Assembly (NCBI RefSeq): GCF_008122265.1
Contig: NZ_CP043042.1
Coordinates: 2,790,001-2,854,000, forward strand
Direction of reading: 5' to 3'
From: Marinobacter fonticola
GTDB lineage: Bacteria > Pseudomonadota > Gammaproteobacteria > Pseudomonadales > Oleiphilaceae
Length of the DNA: 64,000 nt
How positions within the stretch are numbered: the stretch's first letter is position 1; the number at the start of each line of letters is the position of its first letter. The translations under genes were made by a program, and so were the position numbers. Shown here piece after piece: positions 9,497 to 41,242 of this stretch. The notes beneath the pieces are model-generated. The model saw nothing but the letters and a program-made list of their open reading frames with translations, did no database searches and was not told the origin of the DNA.

Positions 9497-9538
9497 AATT
9501 ATTGCCTCCTCAGGAAGGCTGCATATCCATTTGTATGC

Positions 9539-9565
9539 TTATCGGCCAAAAGCGGCAAAACTTTG
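9539..9565 (-). promoter_or_regulatory. sigma-28 (FliA) promoter of fliD
   Basis: On the minus strand the sequence reads CAAAGTTT, 11 bases, GCCGATAA. This matches the FliA consensus (TAAAGTTT-N11-GCCGATAA) at all but the first base, with exact spacing. It lies 43 bases before the fliD start. Confidence 0.85.
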
Positions 9566-9631
9566 CCCTTATCGCCGTCGGAATTGTAACTAAATGTAGA
9601 GCGCCCACCCTCGCTTCTAGCGCCCTGAACG

Positions 9632-9666
9632 ACAAACACCGCCGGCTCCTCACGGAGGCGGCGGTG
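9632..9666 (-). terminator. intrinsic terminator after flaG
   Basis: On the minus strand, CACCGCCG and CGGCGGTG form an 8-base stem with an inner CTCC/GGAG stem around GTGA, followed by TTTGTC. It separates flaG from the sigma-28 promoter of fliD. Confidence 0.75.
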
Positions 9667-9709
9667 CTGAAATACCGCTGTTTAAGGCCTAGGCGAAACC
9701 GGCAAAGGT

Positions 9710-10135
9710 TTACACTTCGATGTAAAACAACGTCAGCGGTTCATCCTGCTGCAATTTTTCGGCCAACCTTAAAGCCACATCATCAGGAATCTGCCGAACC
9801 ACTTTATCCGTCTGCTGATCAACGACACGGACAATGGTCTTTCCGGAGTCATTGTCCACTTCAAATTGAAGATCACGCTGGACGGTTTGCACGAAGTCAT
9901 TCAGCCGGGAAACCGCCTGATCGAGCGATTCCCTTTGGGCTTCACGCCGATCTTCCAGCCGCTCAATTCGTGTCGGTTGAGACTGTCTGGAAAGACCAAC
10001 GGTAACACCCGCTTCCTGGACCCGAGCGGAAGGCTCATTTCCTTCTGCCTGAGGTGGCGCAGACGCCCGAGCCGGAGCTTGTTCACTGGAGCGAACCAGC
10101 TTCAAATCCGAGCTGTTCAGGTTTATGTCATTCAT
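9710..10135 (-). CDS. flaG: flagellar protein FlaG
   Basis: A 141-residue protein with a low-complexity N-terminal half and the FlaG domain at about residues 75-141, including GKTIVRVVDQQTDKVVRQIP. In polar flagellates FlaG affects filament length. The start has GAGGTG upstream. It follows flagellin 1 after a terminator-like hairpin and has no clear promoter of its own, so it is probably transcribed by read-through. Confidence 0.9.
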   Translation of the reverse strand: MNDINLNSSDLKLVRSSEQAPARASAPPQAEGNEPSARVQEAGVTVGLSRQSQPTRIERLEDRREAQRESLDQAVSRLNDFVQTVQRDLQFEVDNDSGKTIVRVVDQQTDKVVRQIPDDVALRLAEKLQQDEPLTLFYIEV

Positions 10136-10163
10136 AGCTCACCTCGCTATCCTCTCACGGCGG

Positions 10164-10188
10164 AAAACCGGTCCCCGAAAGGACCGGC
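10164..10188 (-). terminator. intrinsic terminator after flagellin 1
   Basis: On the minus strand, CCGGTCC and GGACCGG form a 7-base stem around a 6-base loop followed by TTTT. It lies between flagellin 1 and flaG and probably keeps flaG expression well below flagellin. Confidence 0.8.
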
Positions 10189-10207
10189 TGTTACCGCTCT
10201 ACCCCTA

Positions 10208-11653
10208 TTACTGCAGGAGGGAAAGAACCTGCTGCGGGCGGGCGTTGGCCTGCGCCAGGACTGAGATACCAGCCTGCTGCAGCACCTGAGACTTGGACAG
10301 CTTCGCCGTTTCAGAAGCGAAGTCAGCGTCCAGGATCCGGCTTTGTGCAGCCGAAAGGTTCTCAGAAGTGGTCGCAATCGCATCGATAGTCGATGTGAAG
10401 CGGTTCTGGATCGCACCCAGGTCAGCTCGCTGGCTGTTGATCGAGGTCAGAGCCGCATCGATAGTCGCAATCGCTTGGTTTGCACCGTCAGCGGTTGTTA
10501 TATCTATTTCAGCGACACTCTGTAGCGCGCCGCTCTCAGATGTTGCGCTCACAACTTCGGCAGAGTTGCCAACGATGCTGAAGGCTGAGCTTGAGCTGAA
10601 GTCAACCTCACCGGTCACACGGGTACTGTCGTTACCACCAGCCACTAGACTCGCGGTCGAACCATCAGCCGAAGTCACGGTGACGTTCGCGGAGGAATCG
10701 GCGATAACGATATCTTCGCCAGCCTCACTCTCCAGCAATACGTTGCCAGAATCATCCAGACTTGCAGTGATGCCGGTTGTCGCAGAGGCGTCGTTAATAG
10801 CTGTTACCAAGGCGCTATTGTCGCCACTCTCAACGGTAGCCGAGATCGTGACCGCTGAACTGTTCTCGCCGGTCAGATCAAAAGAGACCGTGCCCGCGGA
10901 AAGTCCGGAAATGGTCGCTTCGGTGTAGGCATCGGCGCTAACCCCTGTCTTCGAACTCAGGTCGTTAACTGCACTGGCGACATCGCTGGCCGTCGCATTC
11001 GCACCGAACTCGGCCAGTTCGGTGACACCATTACCCGACACCGTGATGTTGCCTGCAGCAACACCGTTACCAGCCGGCGCATCTGTGGCAGCCGCAGTTA
11101 GGTTGCCGGAGAGAGTGCCATTACTGGTATCCGCGGTGTAGTTGCCGATATCAGTGGCACGCGCGCTACCGAGGGATACGTTAATGGTCTGGTTAGCGTT
11201 GGCGCCCACCTGGAACTGGGAGTTGGTGAAGTCACCGTTCAGCAGAGTGCGGCCGTTAAAGTTGGTGGTGTCCGCTACGCGGTTCAGCTCTGCCTGCAGC
11301 TGTGTAACCTCAGCCTGCAATGATTTGCGGTCGGTAGCCGAGTTGGTGTCGTTGGCAGACTGGACAGACAGCTCACGAATACGCTGGAGCAGATCTCCCG
11401 CCTGACCCAGAGCGCCTTCAGCGGTCTGCGCCAGGGAGATACCGTCGTTGGCGTTGCGCTGGGCAACGTTCAAACCACGGATCTGCGCATCGAAACGCGA
11501 GGCAATTGCCAGACCGGCGGCGTCGTCTTTGGCCGAGTTGATACGCAGACCGGAGGACAGACGCTCAAGAGCCTGATCGGACAGAGACTGTGACTTGCTC
11601 AGATTGTTCTGTGCGCTGAGTGACGCAACGTTGGTGTTAATACCGAGAGCCAT
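10208..11653 (-). CDS. fliC: flagellin 1
   Basis: A 481-residue flagellin. The conserved N-terminal D0/D1 region runs from [12 protein letters not shown] to about residue 165 ([20 protein letters not shown]), and the C-terminal D1/D0 region ends in [14 protein letters not shown]. The middle, about residues 170-380, is a variable, Ser/Thr/Ala/Asn-rich surface domain. The frame is open 111 codons upstream, but the ATG at 11653 has AGGAG at good spacing and matches all flagellins. A sigma-28 promoter lies about 90 bases upstream. The second flagellin is divergent. Confidence 0.96.
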
Positions 11654-11741
11654 GATGCTTCTCCTAAAACCTATAAAGTTTCTCTTGGAAGAGGTCTGAC
11701 GCCCGATCGTTTTATATTGGTGCGCCGCCCTGCTGTAATGC

Positions 11742-11768
11742 TTAACGGCGCCTATTAAAGTTCCTTTA
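11742..11768 (-). promoter_or_regulatory. sigma-28 (FliA) promoter of flagellin 1
   Basis: On the minus strand the sequence reads TAAAGGAA, 11 bases, GCCGTTAA. The -10 matches the FliA consensus at 7 of 8 positions, the -35 keeps TAAAG, and the spacing is exact. It implies a leader of about 80 bases before the flagellin 1 ATG at 11653. Confidence 0.8.
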
Positions 11769-11918
11769 GAAAAACTTCGGCTTTTATTGTTAAGTAATGT
11801 AAAAGCGGCAAAAGACTGCCATTCCCGTGCTTTCCAGACGTTTCCTTGACGCCGCTCAATGGCATCCAAAAATCCATTTATCTTATTTTTCAAATAGTTA
11901 AACGAATAAATTGAAAAC

Positions 11919-11933
11919 TGGCACGGCCTTCGC
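11919..11933 (+). promoter_or_regulatory. sigma-54 (RpoN) promoter of flagellin 2
   Basis: TGGCACGGCCTTCGC has a perfect -24 box (TGGCACG) and the invariant GG-N10-GC spacing of RpoN promoters. The -12 element is TCGC instead of TTGC. The predicted start near 11945 leaves a leader of about 90 bases. The same -12 variant occurs before the TPR gene at 23404-23418. Confidence 0.72.
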
Positions 11934-12034
11934 TTATTGCCGCTTAGGAATAATTTTTCTGATAACGGCCGGCAGGGCGTCCACATACAAACGGGCCTGA
12001 GCTACCGGCTTCTCTTACTAAGAGGGAGATCGAT

Positions 12035-13543
12035 ATGCCTCAGATCATCAACACCAATATTGCCTCGCTGAACGCCCAGCGGAACCTGAACACGTCACAA
12101 CGTGATGCGGACACTGCCCTCCAGCGCCTGTCTTCCGGTCTGCGTATCAATTCAGCCAAAGACGATGCCGCCGGCTTGGCCATTTCGGAACGCTTCACTT
12201 CACAAATTCGCGGCCTCGACCAGGCTGTCCGCAACGCGAACGACGGCATTTCCCTGGCCCAGGTCGCAGAGGGCGCACTGGACGAATCCGGCGAAATTCT
12301 TCAGCGTATCCGTGAGCTGGCTATCCAGTCGGCCAACTCCACTAACTCATCTTCCGACCGTGCTGCCTTGCAAAGCGAAGTCAACCAGCTCAAGCAGGAA
12401 CTACAGCGCGTAGCCGAAACCACTGAGTTCAACGGTCTTAAGCTTCTGGACGGTTCGTTCCAGGCCCAGACCTTCCAGGTTGGCGCCAACGAAAACCAGA
12501 GTATTGCGGTCTCCGTCTCCGGCGCGACTAACGACGACCTGGGTAACTATGAAGTCCGGCGCGCTAACGATCAGGCTAATCTTGGCTCGGGCTCGCCCTC
12601 AACGGCTGAAGCCAATCTGACCAACGCGGAAGCAAACCATCCGGTAGCAGCACAGAACCTAACGATCTCCAGCGCACTTGACCAGGTGACCATCCCTGTT
12701 AATGCCGGCGCGACGGCTGCGGAGATCGCCGCCGAAGTAAATAAGGAAGTCGAGCGCACCGGTGTGAGTGCAACCGCAAGCACAGAGACCACATTGACCA
12801 CCGATGCTGCCGGCACAGTCACGTTCGATCTGGACTCCGGCGGAGAGGTATCCACCATCTCGGCCTCAATCACCGATCCCAACGACCTCAACGAACTCGC
12901 TTCGGTCATCAACAAGGCATCCGGTCAGACGGGGATAAATGCACGGGTCGAAGACAGTACGTTGGTACTCACACAGGATGCCGGTAAGGATATCCGGATC
13001 GAGAACTTCTCGCATAGCGGCCCGGGTAACCTCACTGTGGCTGGCGAAACCGGCAGCGGCGCGTCAACTCAACTGGTGGGCAACGATCCGAACCTGGACT
13101 CTGTACTTATCACCGGTACCGTCGACTTCTCGTCCTCGGGTTCGTATGCCGTAACGTCTGACATCGACAACACGGCGGGCTCGCTGTTCGATACTGCTGC
13201 GCGCACCCCCGTCGGAGCTGAGAGGCAGACCGTGTCCAGCATCGATATCAGTACGGTTGAGGGGGCCAACCGCGCAATTTCAATCGTGGACGGTGCCCTA
13301 GCCGTCGTAAATGGTATCCGTGCAGACCTGGGCGCAGTTCAATCACGCTTCGAGTCCACCATTGCCAACCTGAGTACAACTTCGGAGAACTTGAACGCCG
13401 CCCGTTCGCGGATCCAAGATGCCGACTTTGCATCGGAAACCGCGGAATTGGCACGGACTCAGGTCCTCCAGCAGGCGGGCCTGTCGATCCTGGCCCAGGC
13501 CAATGCCCGTCCGCAGCAGGTGTTGCAGCTTCTACAGGGCTAA
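12035..13543 (+). CDS. flagellin 2
   Basis: A 502-residue flagellin with conserved ends ([18 protein letters not shown] at the start, [15 protein letters not shown] at the end) and the D1 motif [20 protein letters not shown] shared with flagellin 1. The variable centre, about residues 170-410, differs from that of flagellin 1. The ribosome site is GAGGGAG. It is divergent from flagellin 1 and preceded by a sigma-54 type promoter, so the two filament proteins are probably made at different times or in different amounts. Which one dominates the filament cannot be told here. Confidence 0.95.
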
Positions 13544-27127: not shown

Positions 27128-27204
27128 GCCCCCGTAGCTCATCTGGATAGAGCGGTCCCCTCCTAAGGGACAGGTAGCAGGTTCGAGTCCTGCCGGGGGC
27201 ACCA
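27128..27204 (+). tRNA. tRNA-Arg (anticodon CCT)
   Basis: A 77-base cloverleaf with acceptor stem GCCCCCG/CGGGGGC, D-loop AGCTCATCTGGATAGAGC, anticodon stem GTCCC/GGGAC around loop CTCCTAA (anticodon CCT), T-arm GCAGG-TTCGAGT-CCTGC and an encoded CCA. Its last 17 bases are the left attachment site of the integrative element that follows. Confidence 0.97.
27188..27204 (+). repeat. left attachment site (attL core)
   Basis: TCCTGCCGGGGGCACCA at the tRNA 3' end is repeated exactly at 38583-38599. A tyrosine integrase starts 178 bases to the right, the normal geometry for tRNA-targeted elements. Confidence 0.9.
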
Positions 27205-27382: not shown

Positions 27383-28642
27383 GTGAGCCGGGCCCTTAAT
27401 AAATTAACGGATAGTGCCGTCAAAAAGGCATCCTCCGACGGACAGAAGCAACGCAAGCTTGCTGATGGTGGCGGACTTACTCTCATTGTTCGGCCAGCGT
27501 CAAAGGTCTGGTGGTTTCGGTACCGGTTCGCAGGCAAGGAAAAGACCTTCAGCCTGGGCAGCTATCCAGAGGTGCCCCTGAAAGATGCGCGCGAAGGGCG
27601 TGACGAAGCCAGGAAGCTGCTGGCGCAGAATATCGACCCAGTGAACCATCGGCGGACGGAAAGCGCCAAGCATCGCAACGCAGCGGCGAACACGTTCAAG
27701 GCCATTGCCAACGACTGGTTGAAGCGGCAAGAAGGCGAACTCGCACCCGGCACAATCAGAGTCACACGCCGTCGTCTCGAAAGCCATATCTTCCCGCACA
27801 TAGGGCAGATCCCGGCAACAGATATCGAGCCGCCGCTCGTACTCCAGGTGCTGCGCAAGCTGGAGACCAAGGGCAAGCACGAGACCGCCCATAGAATGCG
27901 CCAGCGCATCAGCCAGATATTCAGGTATGCCATTGCTGATGGCCGGGCGATCCGCGACCCTGCTGCCGACCTCCGGGGCCTCCTCAAATCAGCACCAACC
28001 ACAAACCGGCCTGCATTAACCAAGCCGGCGGAGGTAGGCGCCCTGCTCCGAGCCATTGAAGCCTACTCCGGCCAGCCGACGACATGCGCGGCGCTGCAAC
28101 TGGCTCCGATGTTATTCCTTCGCCCTGGCGAGCTGAGAAAAGCCGAATGGCCCGAAATTGATCTCGAAAACGCGACTTGGACCATACCCGGGCACCGCAT
28201 GAAGGGCACCTTGAGAGCAAAGCGAGCCGGCAAGGTACCGGACCACCTGATTCCGTTACCAGAGCAGGCGGTAACGGTTCTCGAAGTGCTGCAGCGGATC
28301 ACCGGTCACCGCCCGTACGTATTCGAAGCCATCAAGCCCGGCCGCCCGCTGTCTGAAAACACCATCAATACGGCGCTGCGATCGATGGGCTTCGATGGCG
28401 ACACCATGGTTGGCCACGGCTTCCGGGCGACGGCATCAACCCTGCTCCATGAGATGGGCTGGCAGCCGGAGGTTATCGAACTGCAGCTTGCCCATCGTCA
28501 GCGGAACCAGGTTGCCGCCGCCTATAACCGATCCGCTAGGCTAGAAGAACGGACGGCAATGATGCAGCAATGGGCAGACTACTTGGACAATCTGAAGAAA
28601 GGCGGTTCAGTCGTTCCGTTTAAAGCCAAGAGGGAAGCATGA
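27383..28642 (+). CDS. tyrosine-type site-specific integrase
   Basis: A 419-residue P4-like integrase. The N-terminal DUF4102-type domain covers LADGGGLTLIVRP and KTFSLGSYPEVPLKDAR. The catalytic residues are Arg in FLRPGELRKAEW (near 245), H345-x-x-R348 in HGFRATAST, H371 in LAHRQ and the nucleophile Y381 in AAAYNRS. The start is GTG, with AGGAG upstream. It lies next to the tRNA it presumably targets and overlaps the next gene by 4 bases. Confidence 0.95.
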   Translation: MSRALNKLTDSAVKKASSDGQKQRKLADGGGLTLIVRPASKVWWFRYRFAGKEKTFSLGSYPEVPLKDAREGRDEARKLLAQNIDPVNHRRTESAKHRNAAANTFKAIANDWLKRQEGELAPGTIRVTRRRLESHIFPHIGQIPATDIEPPLVLQVLRKLETKGKHETAHRMRQRISQIFRYAIADGRAIRDPAADLRGLLKSAPTTNRPALTKPAEVGALLRAIEAYSGQPTTCAALQLAPMLFLRPGELRKAEWPEIDLENATWTIPGHRMKGTLRAKRAGKVPDHLIPLPEQAVTVLEVLQRITGHRPYVFEAIKPGRPLSENTINTALRSMGFDGDTMVGHGFRATASTLLHEMGWQPEVIELQLAHRQRNQVAAAYNRSARLEERTAMMQQWADYLDNLKKGGSVVPFKAKREA

Positions 28643-29535
28643 AAATGGCCAAGTTGAAAGCGAAAGAATGGATGACCATCCCGGAAGCTGCCTCCTTTCT
28701 CAATCATATAGCAGGTCAAGAACAGACCATCACAGAATGGGACATACTCCATTACGCGGCATCAGGAGACCTCACACTTTCCATAAAAACGTTCTCTCGC
28801 GTGCCCGGCATTTATGGATACTTCTATCCGAGGGGCTCACGGCCGCCGCAACCTGAGACTGATCCTCCAGACTTCGACGGTAAAGTTTTTTACCTTTCCC
28901 AGGCTTCAAAGCAGACCGCATCTCAACTCCGCCTGTATGAGGCGGTGAAAAAATGGGAAACAGAGGAGCCAGATCCGAACGCAATTTGGGAGGGCCCGGC
29001 GCTGGCTGCCATAGATGAAGAGTCGGCGCTCCAGCCAGGTGTTTGGGACATTCTCTACACAACCATGGCTCAAGAGTACCTCGAGAGCCACTGGAAGAGA
29101 TGCACCGACGAGAGAGATCTCAATCCAGCTGTCCCGCTGAATATACTTAGCGCAAACTTCGCTAAGATCGACGAGAGAGGCACGGAAACATCTACGTTTG
29201 AATTGTGCTTGGTTGAACCTGAACAAGCGGGTGCCGCGCTCGTGAGACTACCCGATCTGCTGCCCGGATCAATACTTTGCATTCGACCTCAAGCATTAGA
29301 GGCGCTTTTCGAGGCCTCGCAAACATCGAGCAGTTCAGAGCTCTCTACCAAAGAGAAGAAGACCTACCTCAGAGTCATAAGGGCGCTCTGCGAGCACCAC
29401 AAAGACATCGACCTTGGCAAGCATTCGACTGCGGCCGCCCAGGTCATAGCAATGGCCGACTCTCTCGGGCTTTCTATTCCAAGTAAGCGCAGTCTTGAGA
29501 ACCTACTGAAAGAGGTACGCAACCTAGAAGATTGA
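28639..29535 (+). CDS. unrecognised 298-residue protein of the integrative element
   Basis: It starts inside the integrase stop (ATGA overlap), so it is translationally coupled to it. The N-terminus looks like a small helix-turn-helix or adaptor region (MTIPEAASFLNHI). The C-terminal 65 residues (KKTYLRVIRALCEHHKDIDL and SIPSKRSLENLLKEV) resemble the C-terminal module of cargo proteins found next to AlpA in many islands. Function is unknown; regulation of excision is possible because of the coupling. No membrane segment or catalytic motif is seen. Confidence 0.75.
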   Translation: MKMAKLKAKEWMTIPEAASFLNHIAGQEQTITEWDILHYAASGDLTLSIKTFSRVPGIYGYFYPRGSRPPQPETDPPDFDGKVFYLSQASKQTASQLRLYEAVKKWETEEPDPNAIWEGPALAAIDEESALQPGVWDILYTTMAQEYLESHWKRCTDERDLNPAVPLNILSANFAKIDERGTETSTFELCLVEPEQAGAALVRLPDLLPGSILCIRPQALEALFEASQTSSSSELSTKEKKTYLRVIRALCEHHKDIDLGKHSTAAAQVIAMADSLGLSIPSKRSLENLLKEVRNLED

Positions 29536-29632: not shown

Positions 29633-29851
29633 ATGCACACAGCAGCATCGAAAGTACCAACCGATAGGGCCGAGCGCCTGCTTCGTCGTCGCGAAGTGGA
29701 AAACCGCACCGGCCTCAGCCGCTCCACCATCTACCTCTGGATGAGTGACGGCCTATTCCCCAAACCTCGAAAGATCGGCCCCCGTGCTGTTGCCTGGCGC
29801 GAAAGCGATATCCAGGCGTGGATTGAACAGCGCCCGGAAGGCTCCGCATGA
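29633..29851 (+). CDS. AlpA-family transcriptional regulator
   Basis: A 72-residue DNA-binding protein of the AlpA/MerR-like winged helix type: RLLRRREVENRTGLSRSTIY, LFPKPRKIGPRAVAWRESDI and QAWIEQR. AlpA proteins activate excision or replication genes of islands and P4-like satellites. It is the first gene of a packed operon (overlaps of 4 bases with the next two genes). Confidence 0.92.
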   Translation: MHTAASKVPTDRAERLLRRREVENRTGLSRSTIYLWMSDGLFPKPRKIGPRAVAWRESDIQAWIEQRPEGSA

Positions 29852-30057
29852 ACTCCGTTGTTAAGCCTGGCTGGTTTACCAGAAGGCGCCAACAGTACCT
29901 CGCACTATCCCAGGTACCAAGAACGCTGAATATCACCGCCAGCGAAGTCACAGACGCTGTATCGCGAGGAGATATCCAAATTGAGCGGATCAGTGGCTGC
30001 AAAGCGGTCGCGCTTGATGAGCTGATTCGATATGTCGAACGGAGGGCGTCACGATGA
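29848..30057 (+). CDS. small putative DNA-binding protein
   Basis: A 69-residue protein overlapping alpA by 4 bases. The segment LNITASEVTDAVSRGDIQIE followed by LDELIRYVERRAS looks like a degenerate excisionase/AlpA-type winged helix, so it may be a second small regulator. This rests on pattern only; function is unknown. Confidence 0.6.
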   Translation: MNSVVKPGWFTRRRQQYLALSQVPRTLNITASEVTDAVSRGDIQIERISGCKAVALDELIRYVERRASR

Positions 30058-30413
30058 GCGAGAAAAAGAAGCGGGCCCGGACCGGCGGCACACCGGTCAC
30101 GGACCTTAACGAGGCATTCCGAAGCAAGACCCAGTATAAGCGGAAACCCCCTGGCCTGCTAACCCGGGAGCGGCGAATCCTGACCGCCCTCACCCTTGGG
30201 CCCAAGACCCGCGAGGAAGTGGACCGTATCGGCAAGGTCAGCAACGGCCCCGAGTACATTCGTCAGCTTCGTGAGCGCGGCTTAGAGATCCACTGCGAAC
30301 GCCGGTGCTTCAGGAATGAAGAGGGACAGGTCTGCTGTCCAGGTGTCTATCGGCTGGCGGAGAAGTCCGTTCCAAGGGCCATGGAGCTGCTCTATCTCGC
30401 TATGGCGGGGTAA
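30054..30413 (+). CDS. small winged-helix-like protein
   Basis: A 119-residue protein overlapping its predecessor by 4 bases. It begins with a basic, disordered-looking stretch (MSEKKKRARTGGTP). The core RERRILTALTLGPKTREEVD and YIRQLRERGLEIHCER resembles a winged helix of the type used in helix-turn-helix domains of phage regulators. It has two cysteines near CCPGVYRLAE. Function is unknown. Confidence 0.6.
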   Translation: MSEKKKRARTGGTPVTDLNEAFRSKTQYKRKPPGLLTRERRILTALTLGPKTREEVDRIGKVSNGPEYIRQLRERGLEIHCERRCFRNEEGQVCCPGVYRLAEKSVPRAMELLYLAMAG

Positions 30414-30417
30414 GCCT

Positions 30418-30825
30418 ATGCCGAGGGATAGACGAGCCAGAAACGTTGGGAGGAAAGGTATTGGGTCCTTTCTCCAGCTTCCCAAGGACGTACTGAACAG
30501 CCGCGCCTACAAGAGCCTGAATGGCTGGCAGGTCAAGCTGTTGGTCGATATCGCGTCCCAGTTCAACGGGAAGAACAACGGCGACCTTTGCGCAGCATTC
30601 TCGGTCATGGAGGACCGCGGCTGGAACTCGAAGACCACCCTCACCAGGAGCCTGAAAGCATTGCTCGACTCTGGACTGATCGAGATGACCCGGCAGGGAG
30701 GCCGCAATCAATGCTCACTATTCGCTGTGACCTGGCGACCGATCGACGAATGCAGCGGGAAGCTCGAAGTGAAACCCACGAACGGCCCGAGCGCACGATA
30801 TCTGAATTGGAGCAAAGCCGCATGA
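30418..30825 (+). CDS. putative replication or regulatory winged-helix protein
   Basis: A 135-residue protein. FLQLPKDVLNSRAYKSLNG, then NGDLCAAFSVMEDRGW and TLTRSLKALLDSGLIEMTRQ, reads like the N-terminal winged helix of phage replication-initiation (O-like) proteins. The frame is open 34 codons upstream, but ATG 30418 follows the previous stop by 4 bases and is preferred. It is immediately followed by iteron-like repeats, which supports, without proving, a replication role. Confidence 0.6.
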   Translation: MPRDRRARNVGRKGIGSFLQLPKDVLNSRAYKSLNGWQVKLLVDIASQFNGKNNGDLCAAFSVMEDRGWNSKTTLTRSLKALLDSGLIEMTRQGGRNQCSLFAVTWRPIDECSGKLEVKPTNGPSARYLNWSKAA

Positions 30826-30836
30826 AAATTAAATCT

Positions 30837-30972
30837 TGTGGTCCGTATGTGACCCAACGTGGTCCGTATGTGGACCAGTTAACCCATTTAACCTTAATAA
30901 TCTGGGCTTATGTGGTCCGTATGTGGACCAGTCAGAGCCGTTTTCAGGGTTTACGTGGTCCATATGTGGACA
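30837..30972 (+). repeat. iteron-like repeat cluster
   Basis: Four copies of a degenerate element, GTGGTCCRTATGTGGACC in its full form, each an imperfect GGTCC/GGACC palindrome. The GGTCC starts are 30840, 30861, 30914 and 30957, that is 21, 53 and 43 bases apart, close to 2, 5 and 4 helical turns. An AT-rich stretch (30879-30908) lies between copies 2 and 3. The layout fits a replication origin or a multi-site operator. The 514-base gap 30826-31339 holds nothing else that I can assign. Confidence 0.7.
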
Positions 30973-31339: not shown

Positions 31340-31507
31340 ATGGCACGCCCCAAAGGCAGCAAACAGACACGTCCAACGAGCAAGGCAATCGTCGGTTACT
31401 ACGAGCTGCTGAAAAGCGCAGCCGACAACGGTGACACCCTGGCGGCCGCTGAACTCATCAAGATCAACATCATGGAAAAAACACGAGGTGCGACCCATGC
31501 AAAATGA
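31340..31507 (+). CDS. small protein of unknown function, 55 residues
   Basis: An open frame starting at an ATG preceded by GAGGTGG, with a basic start (MARPKGSKQTRPTSKAIV) and an AAELIKIN helix. It overlaps the following gene by 11 bases. The start and coupling support it as real. The palindrome CCAATTAAATTGG at 31261-31273 may be part of its promoter. Function is unknown. Confidence 0.55.
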   Translation: MARPKGSKQTRPTSKAIVGYYELLKSAADNGDTLAAAELIKINIMEKTRGATHAK

Positions 31508-32285
31508 ACGTTCCGCGATCCGACTGAGCGGCCTTGAACATCGCCTGAATTACACCGAATACGACTGGCCCAGTATTACCGGCGCCCAGTTGGAAACCCC
31601 CCAAGGGATCTGGCGAGCTGGAGGAAATCTGAACGCCGCGCGCAGGCTACAAGAGGCCGCCCTACTGGCTTTCAATAACTCGGGCGAAGCTATCGGCAAT
31701 GTGAAATCCGATAGCGACCTGACACCCGAAGCCAAGAGCCGACGCGTTCTGGCCTCCGCAGAGCAATATTTCAATTCAGTGGCTCCGGTCGTCTCTGAAC
31801 TAAGCAATGGCATGGCGAGCCTAGCAGAGGCCGCGCCGCGCATGCTGTCCGCTGTGAAGCCGCTCAAAGAGACCGATGTGGTCGGTGAATTACGCGACCA
31901 GGAGCTACGGTCCTTCCTGCGCACCCTTGGACCAGGGGAGCGCCAGAAGCTGGTCCTCGCCATGGGTAAAGGGGAGCATTCCGAACTGACAGCCGCGGTG
32001 CTTCGCGGACCTTCCATTGTTTCCGGCCTGACTGACGACACTGTGAAGTCACTCAACCGCGCAGGCATCGCCACCAGCTACCGGGATTCGGTCACCGCCC
32101 TGCACACCCTACTGATGGTTCGGGATGACGTGATCCGAACGGCTATCGCCGGTGCGGACCTGTTGGGCCAGATCCACAATTCGGCAAAATCTACAGCGGT
32201 TCGAGCAAAGGCTTGGAAGGCCGACGAGGGCGCCGACACCCTGCGCGAATGGCTGAACGACTTCCGCATGCTGCAAGCAGCGTAA
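31497..32285 (+). CDS. unrecognised 262-residue protein before the tape measure gene
   Basis: It begins MQNERSAIRLSGLEHRLNYT, with GAGGTG upstream. The frame is open 22 codons earlier but inside the preceding gene. The protein is mostly helical and Ala/Leu-rich, with no membrane segment and no motif I recognise. Position, one gene before a short protein and then a tape measure protein, is where tail assembly or chaperone genes lie in phages, but sequence does not confirm that role. Confidence 0.65.
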   Translation: MQNERSAIRLSGLEHRLNYTEYDWPSITGAQLETPQGIWRAGGNLNAARRLQEAALLAFNNSGEAIGNVKSDSDLTPEAKSRRVLASAEQYFNSVAPVVSELSNGMASLAEAAPRMLSAVKPLKETDVVGELRDQELRSFLRTLGPGERQKLVLAMGKGEHSELTAAVLRGPSIVSGLTDDTVKSLNRAGIATSYRDSVTALHTLLMVRDDVIRTAIAGADLLGQIHNSAKSTAVRAKAWKADEGADTLREWLNDFRMLQAA

Positions 32286-32295
32286 GGGGGGCCAA

Positions 32296-32571
32296 ATGCT
32301 TCTATTCGACCTGCGCCAGCCCATGACAGATTGCCGGGTGCACGACACCGAGGAACACCCTCTGGTGGAACTTCGTGCCCTGGCAGACCGAGCCCTTGCG
32401 GTAATGATGTCCTACAGCCTGGATTATGCCCGGGTGAGCTACACCATGCTGTCATTCGACCCAGACACCGGTAAGACCGTCACCGTCGAAGCAAGGACGC
32501 CAGGGCGAGCCTATGAGCTGGCGCAGGCGGAATACCAACGCGACACCGGCCCCAGTCAGGCCGTGCAATAG
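32296..32571 (+). CDS. small protein of unknown function, 91 residues
   Basis: A soluble protein 10 bases after the previous gene. LVELRALADRALAVMM suggests one helix, then a short beta region (YTMLSFDPDTGKTVTVEART). It directly precedes the tape measure gene, the place of a tail assembly chaperone, but no frameshift site or family match is visible. Confidence 0.6.
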   Translation: MLLFDLRQPMTDCRVHDTEEHPLVELRALADRALAVMMSYSLDYARVSYTMLSFDPDTGKTVTVEARTPGRAYELAQAEYQRDTGPSQAVQ

Positions 32572-32580
32572 GAGGCGCTT

Positions 32581-34704
32581 GTGAGCTATCGAGCGAGGTT
32601 GGAGGTTACGATTGACTCAAAGTCGGGGGAGACCAGGCTCCGCCGGCTCCAATACGAACTGGACCGCACGGAGAAGGCCGGCGCTCTTGTCGGGAAGACG
32701 CTTCTCGCTGCAGGTGGAGCCCTGGCCGGCGCCGTGACACTCAATGCAGTGGGCAGGCTGGCCACGATGGCCGACGAGTTCGCCCTACTTCAGTCCCGCG
32801 TCAGGGCCGCTACGGACGCCACAGGAGACTATGTAGCGGTGTCTGAAAGGCTGTTCGATATCTCCCAGGACACCGGCACCACGCTGAAATCGAACATCGA
32901 GCTGTTTGACCGCATCCGGATCGGGGCGCAGGAGCTCGGGCGCAGCAATGATGAAGTGCTCGAACTGGTGGAGGCGGTCAATCAGCTGGGGCAAATCGGC
33001 GGTTCCAGTGCATCCGAGTTGAGCAACGCCGCTATCCAGCTTTCCCAGAGCCTGTCCGGTGGCATCGTCCGGGCTGAGGAATTCAACAGCATCATCGAGA
33101 ACACCCCGCGGTTGGCTCAGGCGATTGCCGAGGGCCTGGGCAAGTCTACCGGTGAGCTCCGGGAAATGGTGCTTGCCGGCAACCTGCTGGCCGACGATGT
33201 GTTCGAATCGATCCTTGGCCAGACCGACAAGATCGAACGGGACTTCGGGAAGCTGGAAAGCACCATCGAGCGAGCAGGAACGACGTTCGGCAACTCGTTT
33301 GACGTGTTCATTGGCCGGCTTAACGAAGCGACCAACGCATCATCGAATGTCGCCAGGATTATCGAGGGCCTGGCCTCCGGCCTGGACAATGCCACGGTGA
33401 AGCTGTTCGGTGCGGCCGATCCTATCGAAAACCTGAGCGACAAGATTCAGGATTTGGTCGAAGAGCGCTTCAAACTGGTTTTCCTGCTGCGGCAAGAGCA
33501 GGAAGCCGGCAGTGTCGCCGCACTCGCAACCCAAAGCCGGATCGATGCCATTGACCGCGAGGTTAAGTCTCTCGATGACCGCCGCAAGGCTCTAGTCCAA
33601 CAGCGGATCGCCCAGGACGACGCCACACGGGCCGCTGAAGCTGCTTCCGGCTTCAAGCCTAAGCCTGCCGCCATCGAAGATGTTCGAGATGCAGAGGATC
33701 TGCGGGCATCCCTCGATAAGCGCTTCGGGATCGAGCTGCAGTACCGTCGCCGCATCGAGGAAATCAACGACCTCTACAACAAGCGAGCCCTGGATGCGGA
33801 CACCAAGGCAGAGCTGGAGCGACAGGCAGAGCTTGCACGCATTCGGGCCCAAAATCCGGGAACCGGTAACGCCTACGACTCCATTCTCGGGCAGGTAGAT
33901 GCTCAAGGTCGAGGCCAGGAATACATCGCCGCCCAACAAGCTGAATTCGAGGCCGTGAGGCGCAGCCTTGACCAGCGCTATGCAATCGAGCAGGAGCACG
34001 CGGCCCGGATGCAGGCTCTGCGGGACGGAGAACGCCAGGGCCTGATTGAGGACCAGACCGAAATGAATCGCCTTGTTACCGCCTCTGTGGAGCAGCGAAA
34101 CAAGGAGTTGATGCAACTCGAGCAGGCGCGCCAGTTCATCCAATTGGGCGCCGCAGAGCAATTGTTCGGAAACATGGCGGATCTGGCGAAGGAGTTTGCC
34201 GGGGAGCAGTCCGACCTGTACCGCACGATGTTCGCCTTCCAGAAGGCTGCAGGTATTGCGCAGTCCCTGGTAGCCATCAACACCGGTATCGCGATGGCAG
34301 CTGCCAATCCCTGGCCGATTAACCTTGGTGCCATGGCTTCGGTTGCCGGCGCCACTGCCGGCCTTGTCTCGAATATCTCAGCGATCACCCTGCAGGGCCA
34401 GGCCCACGACGGTATTGACCGCGTTCCCAAGTCCGGCACCTGGAACCTGGAGGCTGGCGAGCGGGTAACCACCTCGAAGACCAGCGACAAGCTCGACAAG
34501 ACGTTGGACGACGTCCAGAAGGGCATGAACACGGCACCAGTCATCAACGTGATAGAGAACCCTGACCGTGCCGGGAACATCTCATCACGGAACGATACGG
34601 ACGGCCGGCAGGTGATCGACATCGTCGTCGCCGACTTTCGTGGTGGCGGCCCGATCTCCAAGACGTTCGAATCCACCTATGGGCAGAAAAGGAAGGGTCG
34701 ATAG
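32581..34704 (+). CDS. phage-type tape measure protein
   Basis: A 707-residue protein with a GTG start and AGGAGG upstream. The N-terminal tape measure domain spans about residues 60-250 (EFALLQSRVRAATDATGDY, GGIVRAEEFNSIIENTPRLA, MVLAGNLLADDVFESIL). A long coiled-coil region follows, then a hydrophobic stretch near residues 550-600. The C-terminal signature is HDGIDRVPKSGTWNLEAGER. In siphophages it sets tail length and helps DNA pass the membrane. At 707 residues it is short for the family and stands alone without other tail genes. Confidence 0.9.
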   Translation: MSYRARLEVTIDSKSGETRLRRLQYELDRTEKAGALVGKTLLAAGGALAGAVTLNAVGRLATMADEFALLQSRVRAATDATGDYVAVSERLFDISQDTGTTLKSNIELFDRIRIGAQELGRSNDEVLELVEAVNQLGQIGGSSASELSNAAIQLSQSLSGGIVRAEEFNSIIENTPRLAQAIAEGLGKSTGELREMVLAGNLLADDVFESILGQTDKIERDFGKLESTIERAGTTFGNSFDVFIGRLNEATNASSNVARIIEGLASGLDNATVKLFGAADPIENLSDKIQDLVEERFKLVFLLRQEQEAGSVAALATQSRIDAIDREVKSLDDRRKALVQQRIAQDDATRAAEAASGFKPKPAAIEDVRDAEDLRASLDKRFGIELQYRRRIEEINDLYNKRALDADTKAELERQAELARIRAQNPGTGNAYDSILGQVDAQGRGQEYIAAQQAEFEAVRRSLDQRYAIEQEHAARMQALRDGERQGLIEDQTEMNRLVTASVEQRNKELMQLEQARQFIQLGAAEQLFGNMADLAKEFAGEQSDLYRTMFAFQKAAGIAQSLVAINTGIAMAAANPWPINLGAMASVAGATAGLVSNISAITLQGQAHDGIDRVPKSGTWNLEAGERVTTSKTSDKLDKTLDDVQKGMNTAPVINVIENPDRAGNISSRNDTDGRQVIDIVVADFRGGGPISKTFESTYGQKRKGR

Positions 34705-35123
34705 TGGCGAGCAACCGGGACGAGAGGGGCCGCTTCCTGCCCCGGGTATCAGGCAACCCGTCAGGCCGTCCCAAGGCCGCCGACGATCTACGCCGGCGCC
34801 TGGAGTCCGGCGTGGGCGATGCGGCTGAGGCGGTACTCAAGGCAGCCAAGGAGGGCGACCTGAACGCCTGCAGGATCATCATCGAGCGCACCCTACCCGC
34901 CCTACGGCCTCATCATGCCGCTGTGCGGTTTGAGATCGACCCGGCGGCGCCATTGGCTGACCAGGGCCGGGCCATTGTCGCCGCGGTGGCAGATGGCCAG
35001 TTACCACCGGACCAGGGTAAGGCCCTATTGGATGGCATCGCCTCATTGGCTCGAATTACCGAAATCGACGAACTGGCCGCACGAATCGCGAAACTGGAGA
35101 GCATGACCGATGAAGGACCTTGA
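34704..35123 (+). CDS. DUF5681 domain protein
   Basis: A 139-residue protein whose N-terminus ERGRFLPRVSGNPSGRPKAA is the DUF5681 signature, common next to phage terminase genes. Its GTG start overlaps the tape measure stop by one base. Helical C-terminal part with a short coiled coil. In phages this domain may be a small terminase-like or packaging-linked factor; the role here is unknown. Confidence 0.8.
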   Translation: MASNRDERGRFLPRVSGNPSGRPKAADDLRRRLESGVGDAAEAVLKAAKEGDLNACRIIIERTLPALRPHHAAVRFEIDPAAPLADQGRAIVAAVADGQLPPDQGKALLDGIASLARITEIDELAARIAKLESMTDEGP

Positions 35124-35406
35124 GCGCCGTCTGAGACGGCTGGAGAAAGACCGCTTTGTGACCGATGACGGCATTGAGGCCATATTCATCACCATCGTAG
35201 ACAACTCGAAGGAAGGCCGGGGCCTTGACCTGCCGACCTATGGCTGGCGATTTCAGCGCCATGCTGCAGACGACGTGGTGACGATGAGGAACCCGGGAGA
35301 AGACGACGACAGCCTACGGGAGCGCCACATGAACGCCGTCCGACCTCTACTGCCCCACAACAGCGTGCCCACATTCCTGCCGATTACGGAGAGCGACAGC
35401 CAATGA
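35110..35406 (+). CDS. tandem small protein 1 (98 residues)
   Basis: It begins MKDLERRLRRLEKD, a short amphipathic coiled coil, and overlaps DUF5681 by 14 bases. It is the first of four consecutive genes with a shared N-terminal heptad-like motif. The rest (TYGWRFQRHAADDVVTMRNP) contains a DPVTVMREPGE-like segment that is also seen in member 4. Function is unknown. Confidence 0.65.
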   Translation: MKDLERRLRRLEKDRFVTDDGIEAIFITIVDNSKEGRGLDLPTYGWRFQRHAADDVVTMRNPGEDDDSLRERHMNAVRPLLPHNSVPTFLPITESDSQ

Positions 35407-35669
35407 ACCGCGAACTCAAGCGACGCCTGGCCGCCCTGGAGAAAAGCGGCCCCTACGCCAAGCGCGTCGAGATATGGATTAAACCGCCGGCCGACGACCT
35501 CCATGGTTGGGAGTGTGGCCCCGAGACCGTCATGCGCCTGGAAGGCGAAACGGACGATGAGCTGGAAGCCAGGGCCAAGGCCACAATGAAGCGCCTATAC
35601 CGCGAGAAGACCATTGTCGGGGGCTTGTGGGTCTACTTTGGCATCGGACCGATGGGGAACACGCGATGA
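35403..35669 (+). CDS. tandem small protein 2 (88 residues)
   Basis: It begins MNRELKRRLAALEKS and overlaps the previous gene by 4 bases. It shares the N-terminal coiled-coil motif and an ETVMRLEGETDDELEARAKA segment, parallel to VTMRNPGEDDDSLRER in member 1. It is paralogous to its neighbours by motif; function is unknown. Confidence 0.65.
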   Translation: MNRELKRRLAALEKSGPYAKRVEIWIKPPADDLHGWECGPETVMRLEGETDDELEARAKATMKRLYREKTIVGGLWVYFGIGPMGNTR

Positions 35670-35842
35670 AACGGGATCTTGAACGCCGCCTCGCCAGCCT
35701 GGAGCAGCACAACCAGGACAGCACGGTAAAAGCTATCAGCGATCTGATGGACGAGCTGAGCGCCGAAGCAGCGGGCGGAGAACACAGCAAATCACCGCAC
35801 TCAATCTTCGACTGCCTGGAGGATCCAACCGATGCGTCGTGA
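35666..35842 (+). CDS. tandem small protein 3 (58 residues)
   Basis: It begins MKRDLERRLASLEQH at ATG 35666, overlapping the previous stop by 4 bases. It keeps only the N-terminal motif of the family and lacks the second segment, so it may be a shortened copy. Function is unknown. Confidence 0.6.
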   Translation: MKRDLERRLASLEQHNQDSTVKAISDLMDELSAEAAGGEHSKSPHSIFDCLEDPTDAS

Positions 35843-36125
35843 ACTGTGGAGACGCCTGGAGGCCATAGAGAAGGATGCGGGTGTCGGCCAAGAGCTGCCC
35901 ATCATCTGGGTGTCCAGACCGAACGCCGACAACGAGCACCTACCGCCTGCCGGCTGGACCGAAACAATCGCTGAGGATCCAGTCACCGTGATGCGCGAAC
36001 CAGGCGAGTCCGATGCCAGTCTTCAAGCGCGAATGATTGCCGAATTTCGAGCGAAGCCGACCTTCTCACCCAAGGCTGCGGGCATATTCACTAGCATCAA
36101 CGCCGACTGTACCGAAAAGGTATAG
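35832..36125 (+). CDS. tandem small protein 4 (97 residues)
   Basis: It begins MRRELWRRLEAIEKD, overlapping the previous gene by 11 bases. PVTVMREPGESDASLQARMI matches the second segment of members 1 and 2. It ends the tandem set 112 bases before the resolvase gene. Function is unknown. Confidence 0.65.
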   Translation: MRRELWRRLEAIEKDAGVGQELPIIWVSRPNADNEHLPPAGWTETIAEDPVTVMREPGESDASLQARMIAEFRAKPTFSPKAAGIFTSINADCTEKV

Positions 36126-36196: not shown

Positions 36197-36224
36197 TGTG
36201 TCGAAAATAACCCAAAATGACACA
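36197..36224. promoter_or_regulatory. candidate resolvase recombination or operator site
   Basis: TGTGTC at 36197-36202 and GACACA at 36219-36224 bound a 28-base segment immediately upstream of the resolvase ATG (36238). The size and inverted ends match a serine-recombinase crossover subsite, or an operator for autoregulation. Confidence 0.55.
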
Positions 36225-36237
36225 CCAGGGGAACGCT

Positions 36238-36885
36238 ATGTTTATTCGCGCCTATCTCAGGGCCAGCACCGACGAGCAAGATGCAAACAGGGCCCAATCG
36301 ATGCTTCAGTCCTTCGCAACGGACTGCGGGCACAAGATCGCCAATTGGTACACCGAGAATGCTTCCGGCGCCCAGGCGGATCGCTCCGAGCTTCAGCGAT
36401 TGCTGAAAGATGCCCAGCCGGGTGATGTGTTGCTGGTGGAGGCCATAGACCGGCTCTCGCGACTACCGGCCGGAGACTGGAAGCGCCTACGCTCTGAGAT
36501 CGAATCCAAGGGGCTGCGTGTAGTGGCCGTGGACCTTCCAACCAGCCACCAGGCGATGAGAAGCACGGAGGGCGACGAATTCACAGCACGGATGCTGGAT
36601 GCGATTAACGGAATGATGCTGGATATGATGGCCGCCATTGCTCGCAAGGACTACGAAGACCGCCGCCGCAGACAGGCTGAAGGGATTGCCAAGGCGAAAG
36701 CCGCGGGCGTCTACCAGGGCAGGCCCCGGGACATGGACAAGCGACGCAAGATTAAAGAGCTGCTCAAGTCAGGCCTCAGTGTTCGCAAGGTCGCCGAATA
36801 TGCCGATTGCTCAACCTCAACTGTTCAGACCGTGAAGAAGGAATTTACCAAATCTGCCGGCGCCAAAAAGTCGCCTGAGCGTTGA
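36238..36885 (+). CDS. serine recombinase (resolvase/invertase family)
   Basis: A 215-residue enzyme with the catalytic serine in RAYLRASTDEQ (Ser10), VEAIDRLSRLP, the long E-helix region and a C-terminal helix-turn-helix (GLSVRKVAEYADCSTSTVQT). The start at 36238 has AGGGGA upstream and keeps the catalytic N-terminus. It may resolve element multimers or invert a segment. A plausible 28-base site lies just upstream. Confidence 0.92.
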   Translation: MFIRAYLRASTDEQDANRAQSMLQSFATDCGHKIANWYTENASGAQADRSELQRLLKDAQPGDVLLVEAIDRLSRLPAGDWKRLRSEIESKGLRVVAVDLPTSHQAMRSTEGDEFTARMLDAINGMMLDMMAAIARKDYEDRRRRQAEGIAKAKAAGVYQGRPRDMDKRRKIKELLKSGLSVRKVAEYADCSTSTVQTVKKEFTKSAGAKKSPER

Positions 36886-36904: not shown

Positions 36905-37093
36905 CTACGTGGCAGCCCAGCCTGATTCTACCCAACGATCTATTTCGGCATGGTTGTACCAGATAACGCCGTCAGGCCCGTACTTCCACTGCCGGCCCTC
37001 CACCCATTGCCTTCTGCGGATTTTTATCTGGTCCTTGGTGAGCCCGGTCATTTCAGTGAGCTTTCGCTCAAGCACCCAGCGTGAAGCAGTCAC
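36905..37093 (-). CDS. excisionase-like small protein
   Basis: About 62 residues from a GTG start. SRWVLERKLTEMTGLTKDQI and WVEGRQWKYGPDGVIWYN plus NHAEIDRWVE match the fold of lambda-type excisionases that bend DNA beside the integrase. The frame is open to 37180; the shorter start fits the family length and the true start is uncertain. It converges on the resolvase gene. As the element has both integrase and this protein, it should be excisable. Confidence 0.7.
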   Translation of the reverse strand: MTASRWVLERKLTEMTGLTKDQIKIRRRQWVEGRQWKYGPDGVIWYNHAEIDRWVESGWAAT

Positions 37094-37275
37094 TTCTATA
37101 GAGCCCTTATCCGTTCTTTTAAGTCTTCGACAGTCGCGCGCTTCCGGGAAAAGCTTCGCTCTGAGGCCTGCCGGTCCCACATCTCACTTCGCCACGGTTC
37201 ACTACCGCGCCTGCGGTGGGCTTACAGTTACCACGCAAGGCGCCCGGAAGCCAGGCGCCTGCAATAGCGGAAAGT

Positions 37276-37497
37276 TCAAACCAGGTTCTTCTCACCTGGG
37301 TTTATGATCCTTGTCATCTCTCCAGCCGAAAAGCTCACGTGCTCTTTGGCCTGCTTTACCAGCGCACCTAGAACCACATCCGGATTATCCGCGTTGAGCA
37401 CGGATGGATCCGTCATATACATCAACAGTATCTCAGCATCGAACAGACGTTCACGCACTTCGTTTATTTTCTGGTGAAGTTCAGCATTATTTTCCAT
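37276..37497 (-). CDS. small protein of unknown function, 73 residues
   Basis: An acidic protein with a helical N-terminus (MENNAELHQKINEVRERLFD) and a strong AAGGAG ribosome site. It is the last of three closely spaced minus-strand genes. No motif recognised. Confidence 0.6.
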   Translation of the reverse strand: MENNAELHQKINEVRERLFDAEILLMYMTDPSVLNADNPDVVLGALVKQAKEHVSFSAGEMTRIINPGEKNLV

Positions 37498-37509: not shown

Positions 37510-37896
37510 TCAAATGTCCGTCAGCAAGTAAAGTTCAACACCCACGTAGCCCGACTCTCTCAGCTCTTCTACACGCGTCAGGGCATCCCCGTAGGTCATG
37601 GGAACAAAGCTCGTGTGGCGTTCGGGGCGACCATAAGCCTTGGCGAAAAAGTGATAGCCGAACCGGTCATCTTCTGAAGGCACATGCGCAGCCAGAGACA
37701 GGTCGGCAGCGAGGCTCATTTGTACCACCTCCACCGATGGATGGGTGGCTGAGAAGAAGTCCCTCAGATCTTCAGCCTCAGATTGCGAAACGGGCTCGTC
37801 GGGCAACCGTGGTCCGGATTCAGATAGCCTCACTCCGAAACCATGAAGGAAACCCTCTGCGAGAAAAGGTGAATCTGGTTGGGCTTGCGGGTTCAT
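37510..37896 (-). CDS. protein of unknown function, 128 residues
   Basis: A soluble acidic protein overlapping its upstream neighbour by 4 bases (ATGA) and preceded by GGGAGGG. SEAEDLRDFFSATHPSVEVV and DALTRVEELRESGYVGVEL suggest a small alpha/beta fold. No family recognised; no signal peptide. Confidence 0.6.
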   Translation of the reverse strand: MNPQAQPDSPFLAEGFLHGFGVRLSESGPRLPDEPVSQSEAEDLRDFFSATHPSVEVVQMSLAADLSLAAHVPSEDDRFGYHFFAKAYGRPERHTSFVPMTYGDALTRVEELRESGYVGVELYLLTDI

Positions 37897-38141
37897 TGTT
37901 TTAGCCCTCCCTTGTCCGGCGCTGTGCCGTCCACATTCATACGTAAGAGAGCTATGGTTTCTGGCATGAGATGAGCAGCGATGGTCTCGGTTTCCAATGC
38001 TTCGCGGTATGTTCCAACCCAGGCTTTATCGCCGAAAGCCATCATCACTTCCTTCTTGTATGGATCGAGAGTGACGCAAAGGAACGGTCCGGCGTTCGGT
38101 ATAGCTTCTCTCCCAGCGGTGGTAAGATGCTGATGTTGCAT
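37893..38141 (-). CDS. small protein of unknown function, 82 residues
   Basis: It begins MQHQHLTTAGREA at ATG 38141 with GAGGAAC upstream. The frame is open 5 codons earlier but lacks a good ribosome site there. YREALETETIAAHLMPETIA forms a helix. It is translationally coupled to the next gene. Function is unknown. Confidence 0.6.
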   Translation of the reverse strand: MQHQHLTTAGREAIPNAGPFLCVTLDPYKKEVMMAFGDKAWVGTYREALETETIAAHLMPETIALLRMNVDGTAPDKGGLKQ

Positions 38142-38174
38142 GGTTGAGTTCCTCAATTACTTTACTGTGTAACT

Positions 38175-38211: not shown

Positions 38212-38373
38212 TCAGTCCTTGTGACGTGCCACATACTCATCGAGTGCAGTTCTGATGAGATCCGCAAGGCGCACATCTTCACCAGTTCGCATCCGCCGCT
38301 TCCTGGCGATTTCGTCAAGCTTCCTTCGCGTTTCCGCCTCTATTCGCGCACTGATGTGCACCAAGTCCGGCAT
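38212..38373 (-). CDS. ribbon-helix-helix protein
   Basis: A 53-residue protein with a ribbon-helix-helix pattern: HISARIEAETRRKLDEIARK (strand and first helix), then DLIRTALDEYVARHKD. The start at 38373 has AAGGAGA; an upstream ATG would add 17 residues without family similarity. It is a good candidate for a repressor of the element's operons, or an antitoxin-like regulator, though no toxin is adjacent. Confidence 0.72.
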   Translation of the reverse strand: MPDLVHISARIEAETRRKLDEIARKRRMRTGEDVRLADLIRTALDEYVARHKD

Positions 38374-38503
38374 GGTTTTCTCCTTATCGTGTTCGCGTAA
38401 CACACGAATACAATATCCAGACAAGACTCTCCCTGCAAGGGATCGCTGAGGAAATTTTGTGCCGCAGTGGTAGCTATTGGCAGCCCAGGCACATAGAGAA
38501 AAT

Positions 38504-38522: not shown

Positions 38523-38582
38523 CTCAGGCACCGAACAAGTGCCAGCGCCTAATTTTTCATAAGGTTAGATGTGGCTTTCGGT

Positions 38583-38599
38583 TCCTGCCGGGGGCACCA
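38583..38599 (+). repeat. right attachment site (attR core)
   Basis: TCCTGCCGGGGGCACCA is an exact second copy of the tRNA-Arg 3' end. The bases on either side differ from the tRNA, so this is a partial duplicate with no complete tRNA. Confidence 0.9.

Positions 38600-39526: not shown

Positions 39527-41242
<1,716 letters not shown>

Follow-up and report, generated by a model that had tools for sequence, protein, structure and literature searches.

What an integrative element could gain from a phage tape measure gene without the rest of a tail is the question raised by this locus. The tape measure protein (TMP) is the ruler of the phage tail; it forms an internal rod and helps the DNA into the next cell. 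In the window, by which the whole 64,000-nt stretch of DNA is meant and to which all coordinates without a prefix refer, the TMP gene (32581–34704, + strand, 707 aa) stands alone in an 11.4-kb element. The element lies between tRNA-Arg(CCT) (27128–27204, + strand, ARAGORN), its attachment site, and a copy of the tRNA 3' end (38577–38599, + strand), which matches the repeat copy within the tRNA (27182–27204) in 21 of 23 bases. These repeats are 11,395 bases apart, with a chance expectation of 0.01. The TMP frame starts with GTG, has AGGAGG upstream and runs without an internal stop. It matched Pfam TMP_3 (PF20155) at E 9.6e-56 with 189 bits (cut-off 41), TIGR02675 at E 1.1e-20, and 32 PHROGs families, the best of which was phrog_339 (E 4.7e-87). 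Among the best 25 of the 32 families, 23 are named 'tail length tape measure protein' and two are of unknown function. As judged from its sequence, the product is an intact siphophage tape measure protein.

The gene content of the element was determined by family scans of its open reading frames, 20 against PHROGs, 19 distinct frames against Pfam, of which one was used in two versions, and 10 against NCBIfam. On the + strand, a tyrosine integrase of 419 aa (27383–28642; PF22022, PF13356, PF00589) is 76, 73 and 76% identical to the integrases of loci L163, L165 and L173, respectively. It is followed by a 298-aa gene (28639–29535) without a Pfam or PHROGs family, which has short, weak similarity to L164 (5180–6151) and L174 (14244–15293). 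Next are an AlpA-type regulator (29633–29851; PF05930 at E 2.8e-22, and phrog_2790), a small gene that is possibly, on a weak match, excisionase-like (29848–30057; phrog_2907 at E 0.038), a winged-helix protein (30054–30413; HTH_39 at E 0.0018, below the cut-off) and a DnaD-like replication protein (30400–30825; phrog_186 at E 0.0013, scanned as the frame 30316–30825). Four iteron-like repeats with spacings of 21, 53 and 43 bases (30837–30971, + strand) are a candidate replication origin. Downstream of the TMP gene and its neighbours, a serine resolvase/invertase (36217–36885, + strand; PF00239 at E 1.2e-23) had a PHROGs match to 'structural protein' at chance level (E 0.098). The remaining genes are on the – strand: a DUF1233 excisionase (36905–37180; PF06806 at E 9e-12, phrog_539 at E 5.3e-18), a 73-aa gene (37276–37497) that could be aligned by eye with the end genes of L140, L173 and L175, and three small genes (37510–37896, 37893–38156 and 38212–38424), the last of which is weakly CopG-like. 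The scans and the repeats thus confirm the preliminary description of a lone TMP in a tRNA-borne element with integrase, AlpA, xis-like and resolvase genes.

No capsid, portal, large terminase, tail tube or lysis family was matched by these frames in PHROGs, Pfam or NCBIfam, as had been described. A tail assembly chaperone family was likewise unmatched in the three collections, and no primase was recognised with Pfam and PHROGs. Promoter and terminator patterns in the element showed no excess over shuffled sequences. The locus is an integrative element with an integrase and defined ends, and its virion gene set is incomplete. Directly 3' of it (38648–64000), mer-like genes, efflux genes and further regulators were noticed by eye, and a merA-like frame looks interrupted (39829–40722 and 40529–41242). 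The flank genes of sister genomes were sought in the window and none was found.

The TMP gene belongs to a tight block. A 262-aa gene (31497–32285, + strand) opens it, a 91-aa gene (32296–32571, + strand) without a family in Pfam, PHROGs or NCBIfam or a match in PADLOC lies directly 5' of the TMP gene, and a 139-aa DUF5681-type gene (34704–35123, + strand) comes last. The gaps are 10 and 9 bases, and the start of the last gene shares one base with the TMP stop. Because of this spacing, the four genes are probably transcribed as one unit. The 262-aa protein has seven relatives and a confident helical model (pLDDT 89); queries with it began one codon upstream, at 31494, and fold searches gave no match at E 0.001. 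Its gene is rare, being found in 2 of 390 genomes of the order with the window's own genome counted, and no relative was confirmed in genome contigs and viral contigs. In L201, a distant relative (E 4e-6) is flanked by two terminase genes, the small one matching phrog_309 (E 7.8e-15) and the large one phrog_2 (E 1.5e-24), and this position hints at a packaging role for the 262-aa protein.

The DUF5681-type protein matched 79 of 50,697 phage records, three of which were opened. In Vibrio phages pYD38-B and 2.095.B, the relative immediately precedes the large terminase gene and overlaps it; in Kosakonia phage Kc259, the two are one gene apart. A search with the relative P0160 also led to a gene preceding terL in a Klebsiella phage (E 6e-3). 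No named small terminase (TerS) family of Pfam, PHROGs or NCBIfam matches the protein, and its predicted structure retrieved at E < 0.001 only three unnamed viral proteins, with TM scores of 0.36–0.45. Since the relatives adjoin terL in phages, the gene at 34704–35123 probably encodes a small terminase subunit; if so, packaging genes are not wholly missing from the element. It is followed on the + strand by four tandem small genes (35110–35406, 35403–35669, 35672–35842 and 35832–36125), which share an LxRRLxxLE-type start and have no Pfam or PHROGs family. The whole block of TMP, DUF5681-type gene and small genes, for which the preliminary description proposed a search, was not found elsewhere. 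Parts of it were: L189 has a TerS-like gene 42% identical to that of the window, with a small LEK-type gene like the tandem genes 3' of it, L201 has the relative of the 262-aa protein, and the relatives of the 262-aa protein and those of the TerS-like protein both list one 100,810-base Pseudomonadota MAG contig.

In its own genome of 4,543,926 bases, the TMP is the sole match to TMP_3, and Phage_portal (PF04860) has no match. PhageMin_Tail (PF10145) gave one match at 3.88 Mb with E 3e-4, below the cut-off; this place (L255, G000:C1:3882386-3882655) is within another frame of 707 codons. Five other genomes of the genus were compared at the tRNA-Arg site. Shared chromosomal genes follow the tRNA directly in G002, G003 and G005, and G004 has another element there (L256, G004:C1:2058001-2072000) with an integrase of 61% identity. 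In G001 the tRNA end did not match the search pattern, and no integrase was listed.

Relatives of the TMP were sought in 146 related genomes, of which 10, the window's own included, gave a match, and its clade was sought in 390 genomes of the order, of which 20 gave a match (24 places, 22 genes). Besides the window, 26 TMP contexts were classed by eye, with G028 and G038 left out of the nine other matching genomes. The preliminary description took homologues always embedded in full prophages as the mark of a remnant. This outcome did not occur, though 24 of the 26 genes adjoin head or tail genes in prophages: those of L140 and L243 are alone, and the TMPs of L167 and L173 were found through the backbone of the element instead. 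The lone TMP of L243 has 771 aa (phrog_2854, E 3.8e-147), part of it is 57% identical to residues 504–645 of the window TMP, and its integrase and replication genes differ from the window backbone. The closest relatives, P0002–P0007 (664–677 aa), are outside the 26 contexts; they are 45–49% identical to the window TMP with local coverage of 65–97%. No relative of the TMP clade was confirmed in genome contigs. The TMP matches 1048 phage records and 90 plasmid records, none of them over 80% of its length. At 127 viral-contig loci, the winged-helix, DnaD-like, 262-aa and TerS-like proteins of the window had no match, and its integrase had a match in three.

The backbone was followed with the winged-helix protein (30054–30413) as a marker. 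Marker places numbered 25 including the window, 15 of them in 163 genomes of the family, 8 more in 390 of the order and 2 more in 369 of the class. An integrase was recognised at 24 of the 25, the exception being L195, which begins at a contig end. A DnaD-like protein is present at 14; that of the window is 69% identical to the one in L170, 63% in L166 and L167, 61% in L175 and 41% in L189, and it has no match to that of L140. Iteron-like repeats 3' of the DnaD-like gene were found in L166 (four, spacing 21/52/43, with a sequence unlike that of the window), in L167 and L175 (three each, 74/43) and in L140 (three, 42/44); by the same test they are absent from L170. The spacing appears to be kept between elements while the repeat sequence varies. 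Since both the DnaD-like genes and the repeats recur, a related replication module recurs on this backbone. Ends were mapped for the window element and for L140, L163, L166, L167, L173, L175 and L189. The element sizes are 9.3 kb for L140, 16 kb for L173, about 11.1 kb for L167 and L189, and 9.4 kb for L175. In 22 bases, the end repeats have three mismatches in L140 and L173, four in L175, and three or four in L163 and L166.

The cargo of the backbone varies. Virion or packaging families were found at nine of the 25 places (the window, L140, L167, L173, L175, L189, L193, L247 and L174), and a TMP at four: 707 aa in the window, 686 aa in L140, 920 aa in L167 and 938 aa in L173, where frames are measured from the earliest start codon available, so that lengths may be overestimated. 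Together with L243, these TMPs span three families, phrog_339 in the window, phrog_2854 in L140 (E 4.4e-94) and L243, and phrog_4211 in L167 (E 5.8e-55) and L173 (E 6.7e-53), and their companions differ. The companion in L140 is an S78 prohead protease (E 2.4e-43); those in L167 are a small terminase (phrog_57, E 4.8e-36) and a fusion of protease and major head protein (phrog_133, E 1.5e-156). L175 has a protease/head fusion and a small terminase without a TMP. The fusion and small terminase genes at L167:10262-12130 and L175:10534-12414 may mark capsid-forming forms. A large terminase was matched in L193 (phrog_2, E 6.6e-20; also a protease) and L247 (phrog_2, E 1e-22), and a small terminase in L174 (phrog_309, E 8.6e-47). 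The large-terminase genes at L193:8735-12004, L247:11424-13720 and L201:8237-10907 are seen with the full virion set missing. Small terminases guessed by eye for L243, L193 and L247 were dropped, as no PHROGs family matched. On the same backbone, the cargo of L171, L172 and L174 appears by eye to be type I restriction-modification, which fits their helicase and methyltransferase PHROGs.

At the other 16 places, no virion gene was seen by eye and in PHROGs scans. These scans covered 136 and 107 frames at 17 places, among them L174, later positive for a small terminase, and the best 25 of 132 and 25 of 71 matching families were considered, so weaker virion genes may escape them. Because 16 of the 25 places show no virion gene, the TMP is an optional cargo of this backbone. 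The TMPs of L167 and L173 are 66% identical over 920 aa, though the integrases of the two elements differ. Codon positions 1, 2 and 3 are 73, 83 and 40% identical, with dN 0.27 and dS 2.3 (NG86, dS being saturated); these two sister TMPs are under purifying selection. They and the window TMP look like working genes.

One relative carries another kind of cargo. In L189, which is from another bacterial family, the TerS-like gene is followed within 8063–12705 by a 203-aa DNA ejection protein (phrog_598, E 8.8e-33) and by proteins of 406 and 722 aa, neither of which matches a family. Phage CBW1004C-Prop1 has counterparts of the first and third of these genes, gp51 (70% identity) and gp53 (50%), in the same order with one gene between; the middle gene was compared by position only. 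Two convergent small genes come after the set, as in CBW1004C-Prop1. No other virion gene was seen in L189. The record of CBW1004C-Prop1 says Caudoviricetes, and by its gene list this phage looks short-tailed. The three genes of L189 appear to encode the ejection proteins of a P22-like phage, the first by a family match.

Taking all together, the window element is most likely a phage satellite rather than a remnant. We give a probability of roughly 0.6 to the reading that it is a satellite of a helper phage with a long non-contractile tail, whose TMP would be replaced by that of the satellite, while the TerS-like protein would redirect packaging and the conduit would be chosen by the satellite. 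Upon helper infection or induction, the element would excise through its integrase and excisionase and replicate from the iteron origin with the winged-helix and DnaD-like proteins. The tight block of 262-aa, 91-aa, TMP and TerS-like genes would then be expressed. The TerS-like protein would direct the helper large terminase to satellite DNA, and helper tails would be built with the satellite TMP instead of their own. Tail length and, more importantly, the DNA-injection conduit of the particles would thus be set by the satellite, and the selective advantage may be that exclusion or defence directed against the helper conduit is evaded. The earlier proposal of a satellite with its own TMP is well supported by the TMPs of L140, L167 and L173, which come without a tail gene set, by the lone TMP of L243 and by the precedent of the PLE satellites. 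Weighing against the full reading are the lack of a Phage_portal match and of a second TMP_3 match in the genome, the tail assembly chaperone that PLEs encode and that was not recognised here, the 16 places where no virion gene was seen, and the prevalence of prophages among the TMP contexts.

A decayed prophage, reduced to its tape measure gene and a handful of adjacent genes, would also explain that the virion genes are limited to the TMP and the TerS-like gene, and most TMP relatives are indeed in prophages. However, both ends are present, the block is tight with overlaps, the TMP is intact and close in length to P0002–P0007, and the same backbone bears other TMPs in other genera. The decay of a prophage is largely contradicted by L140, L167, L173 and L243, and we consider it very improbable. 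The TMP might instead be a weapon that jams or diverts helper tail assembly for the host and stays out of particles. Defence systems are known to act on tail assembly (Rta, described in PMC12987554), and an incomplete tail gene set could serve as a decoy. On the other hand, PADLOC gave no match among 10 element proteins (the TMP not included), and the overlap of the TerS-like gene and the ejection-protein sister point to use in particles; a weapon is hence quite improbable.

As for the purpose of a satellite TMP, the preliminary description saw the short length of 707 residues as suited to a shortened tail. The TMP is a ruler, and the tails of PLE11 are reported to be about 10 nm shorter than those of ICP1 (PMC12987554). 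Among 24 prophage TMPs of 614 to 2075 aa, the window TMP is in the lower third, but five of the 24 are shorter, the closest prophage TMP whose N-terminus is similar measures 722 aa, and the satellite TMPs have 686, 707, 771, 920 and 938 aa. Shortening as the purpose is thus not borne out. The TMPs of L140 and of prophage L141 in the same genus share their first 49 and last ~240 residues (53 and 64% identity) and differ in the middle. Such mosaicism is common in phage TMPs, and therefore the shared ends prove little about adaptation. The strongest hint toward the conduit over length is L189: its ejection proteins are of the kind found in a seemingly short-tailed phage, for which length is not at stake. 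The ejection proteins of P22 are described as building an injection conduit, as proposed for the TMPs of long-tailed phages (PMC10883804). Because tail length cannot be reset in a short-tailed phage, and ejection proteins and TMPs are both proposed DNA channels, the satellite would supply its own conduit, with length second. That the TMP mainly resets the helper tail length, with the conduit function incidental, is accordingly unlikely, and replacement of the conduit in helper particles is favoured over tail shortening on the strength of one ejection-protein sister.

Replacement of the conduit can be extended, tentatively and at less than even odds, to the elements as a group. They may carry conduit cassettes, a TMP when the helper is long-tailed (the window, L140, L167, L173 and L243) and a gp7/gp20/gp16-type set when it is short-tailed (L189), so that superinfection exclusion and defences directed at TMPs, which stop the helper, would not hold back the satellite; a change in length would be a side effect. 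Systems of this kind are described: the superinfection exclusion protein SieA acts on P22 gp16 and gp20 (PMC10883804), and the SNIPE defence works through TMPs (PMC13190303). If conduit cassettes exist, satellite and helper would differ in the cells they can enter. If the conduit is replaced, satellites would be selected at the step of entry, which would help to explain the variability of these genes.

PICIs are defined by AlpA, a replication module and TerS, with an integrase also among their features; a TMP is not known as a feature of Gram-negative PICIs. The window element resembles Gram-negative PICIs and PICMIs by its integrase, AlpA and small-terminase-like gene. AlpA was matched, the replication module is represented by the DnaD-like protein with no primase recognised, and TerS is assigned by position only. 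PICMIs differ in that they are described with a reduced gene content and no capsid remodelling. Putative tmp genes are reported in PMC12987554 for PLE-like elements, and the legend of its Extended Data Fig. 10 names them for a sampling of cf-PICIs. In the sister L167, a TMP gene is accompanied by head and TerS genes, and capsid genes as in cf-PICIs are present in L167 and L175, whereas the window element had no capsid gene in the scans. The ejection set of L189 is like gp7, gp20 and gp16 of P22, with the order found in CBW1004C-Prop1, but it sits in a satellite-like element with other virion genes unseen.

The nearest precedent is the PLE satellites of Vibrio cholerae, which encode TMPs that enter the satellite virions and replace the helper's in chimeric tails (PMC12987554). 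There, deletion of tmp is reported to lower transduction by 96% in PLE1, 99% in PLE4 and 99.9% in PLE11. Since the TMPs of PLEs work, a satellite-encoded TMP is already known; control of tails by a satellite was demonstrated in 2026, in a single family, and the authors call it the first case (PMC12987554). The window element shares the satellite-encoded TMP. It differs in that PLEs, as that source describes them, also have a tail assembly chaperone (tac) and some a baseplate hub, neither of which was recognised here, so that tmp occurs without a matched tac, and in that PLEs use the contractile ICP1 tail, whereas the window TMP is of the TMP_3 type. In the literature, no paper on point was found for satellites with ejection proteins and none for phage satellites in Marinobacter. 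New are the hosts, the TMP_3 type, a window element with neither a capsid nor a recognisable chaperone, cargo that is swapped on a common backbone, and the variant with ejection proteins. The elements described here live in hosts other than those of PLEs and have siphophage-type TMPs, and one relative has ejection proteins instead.
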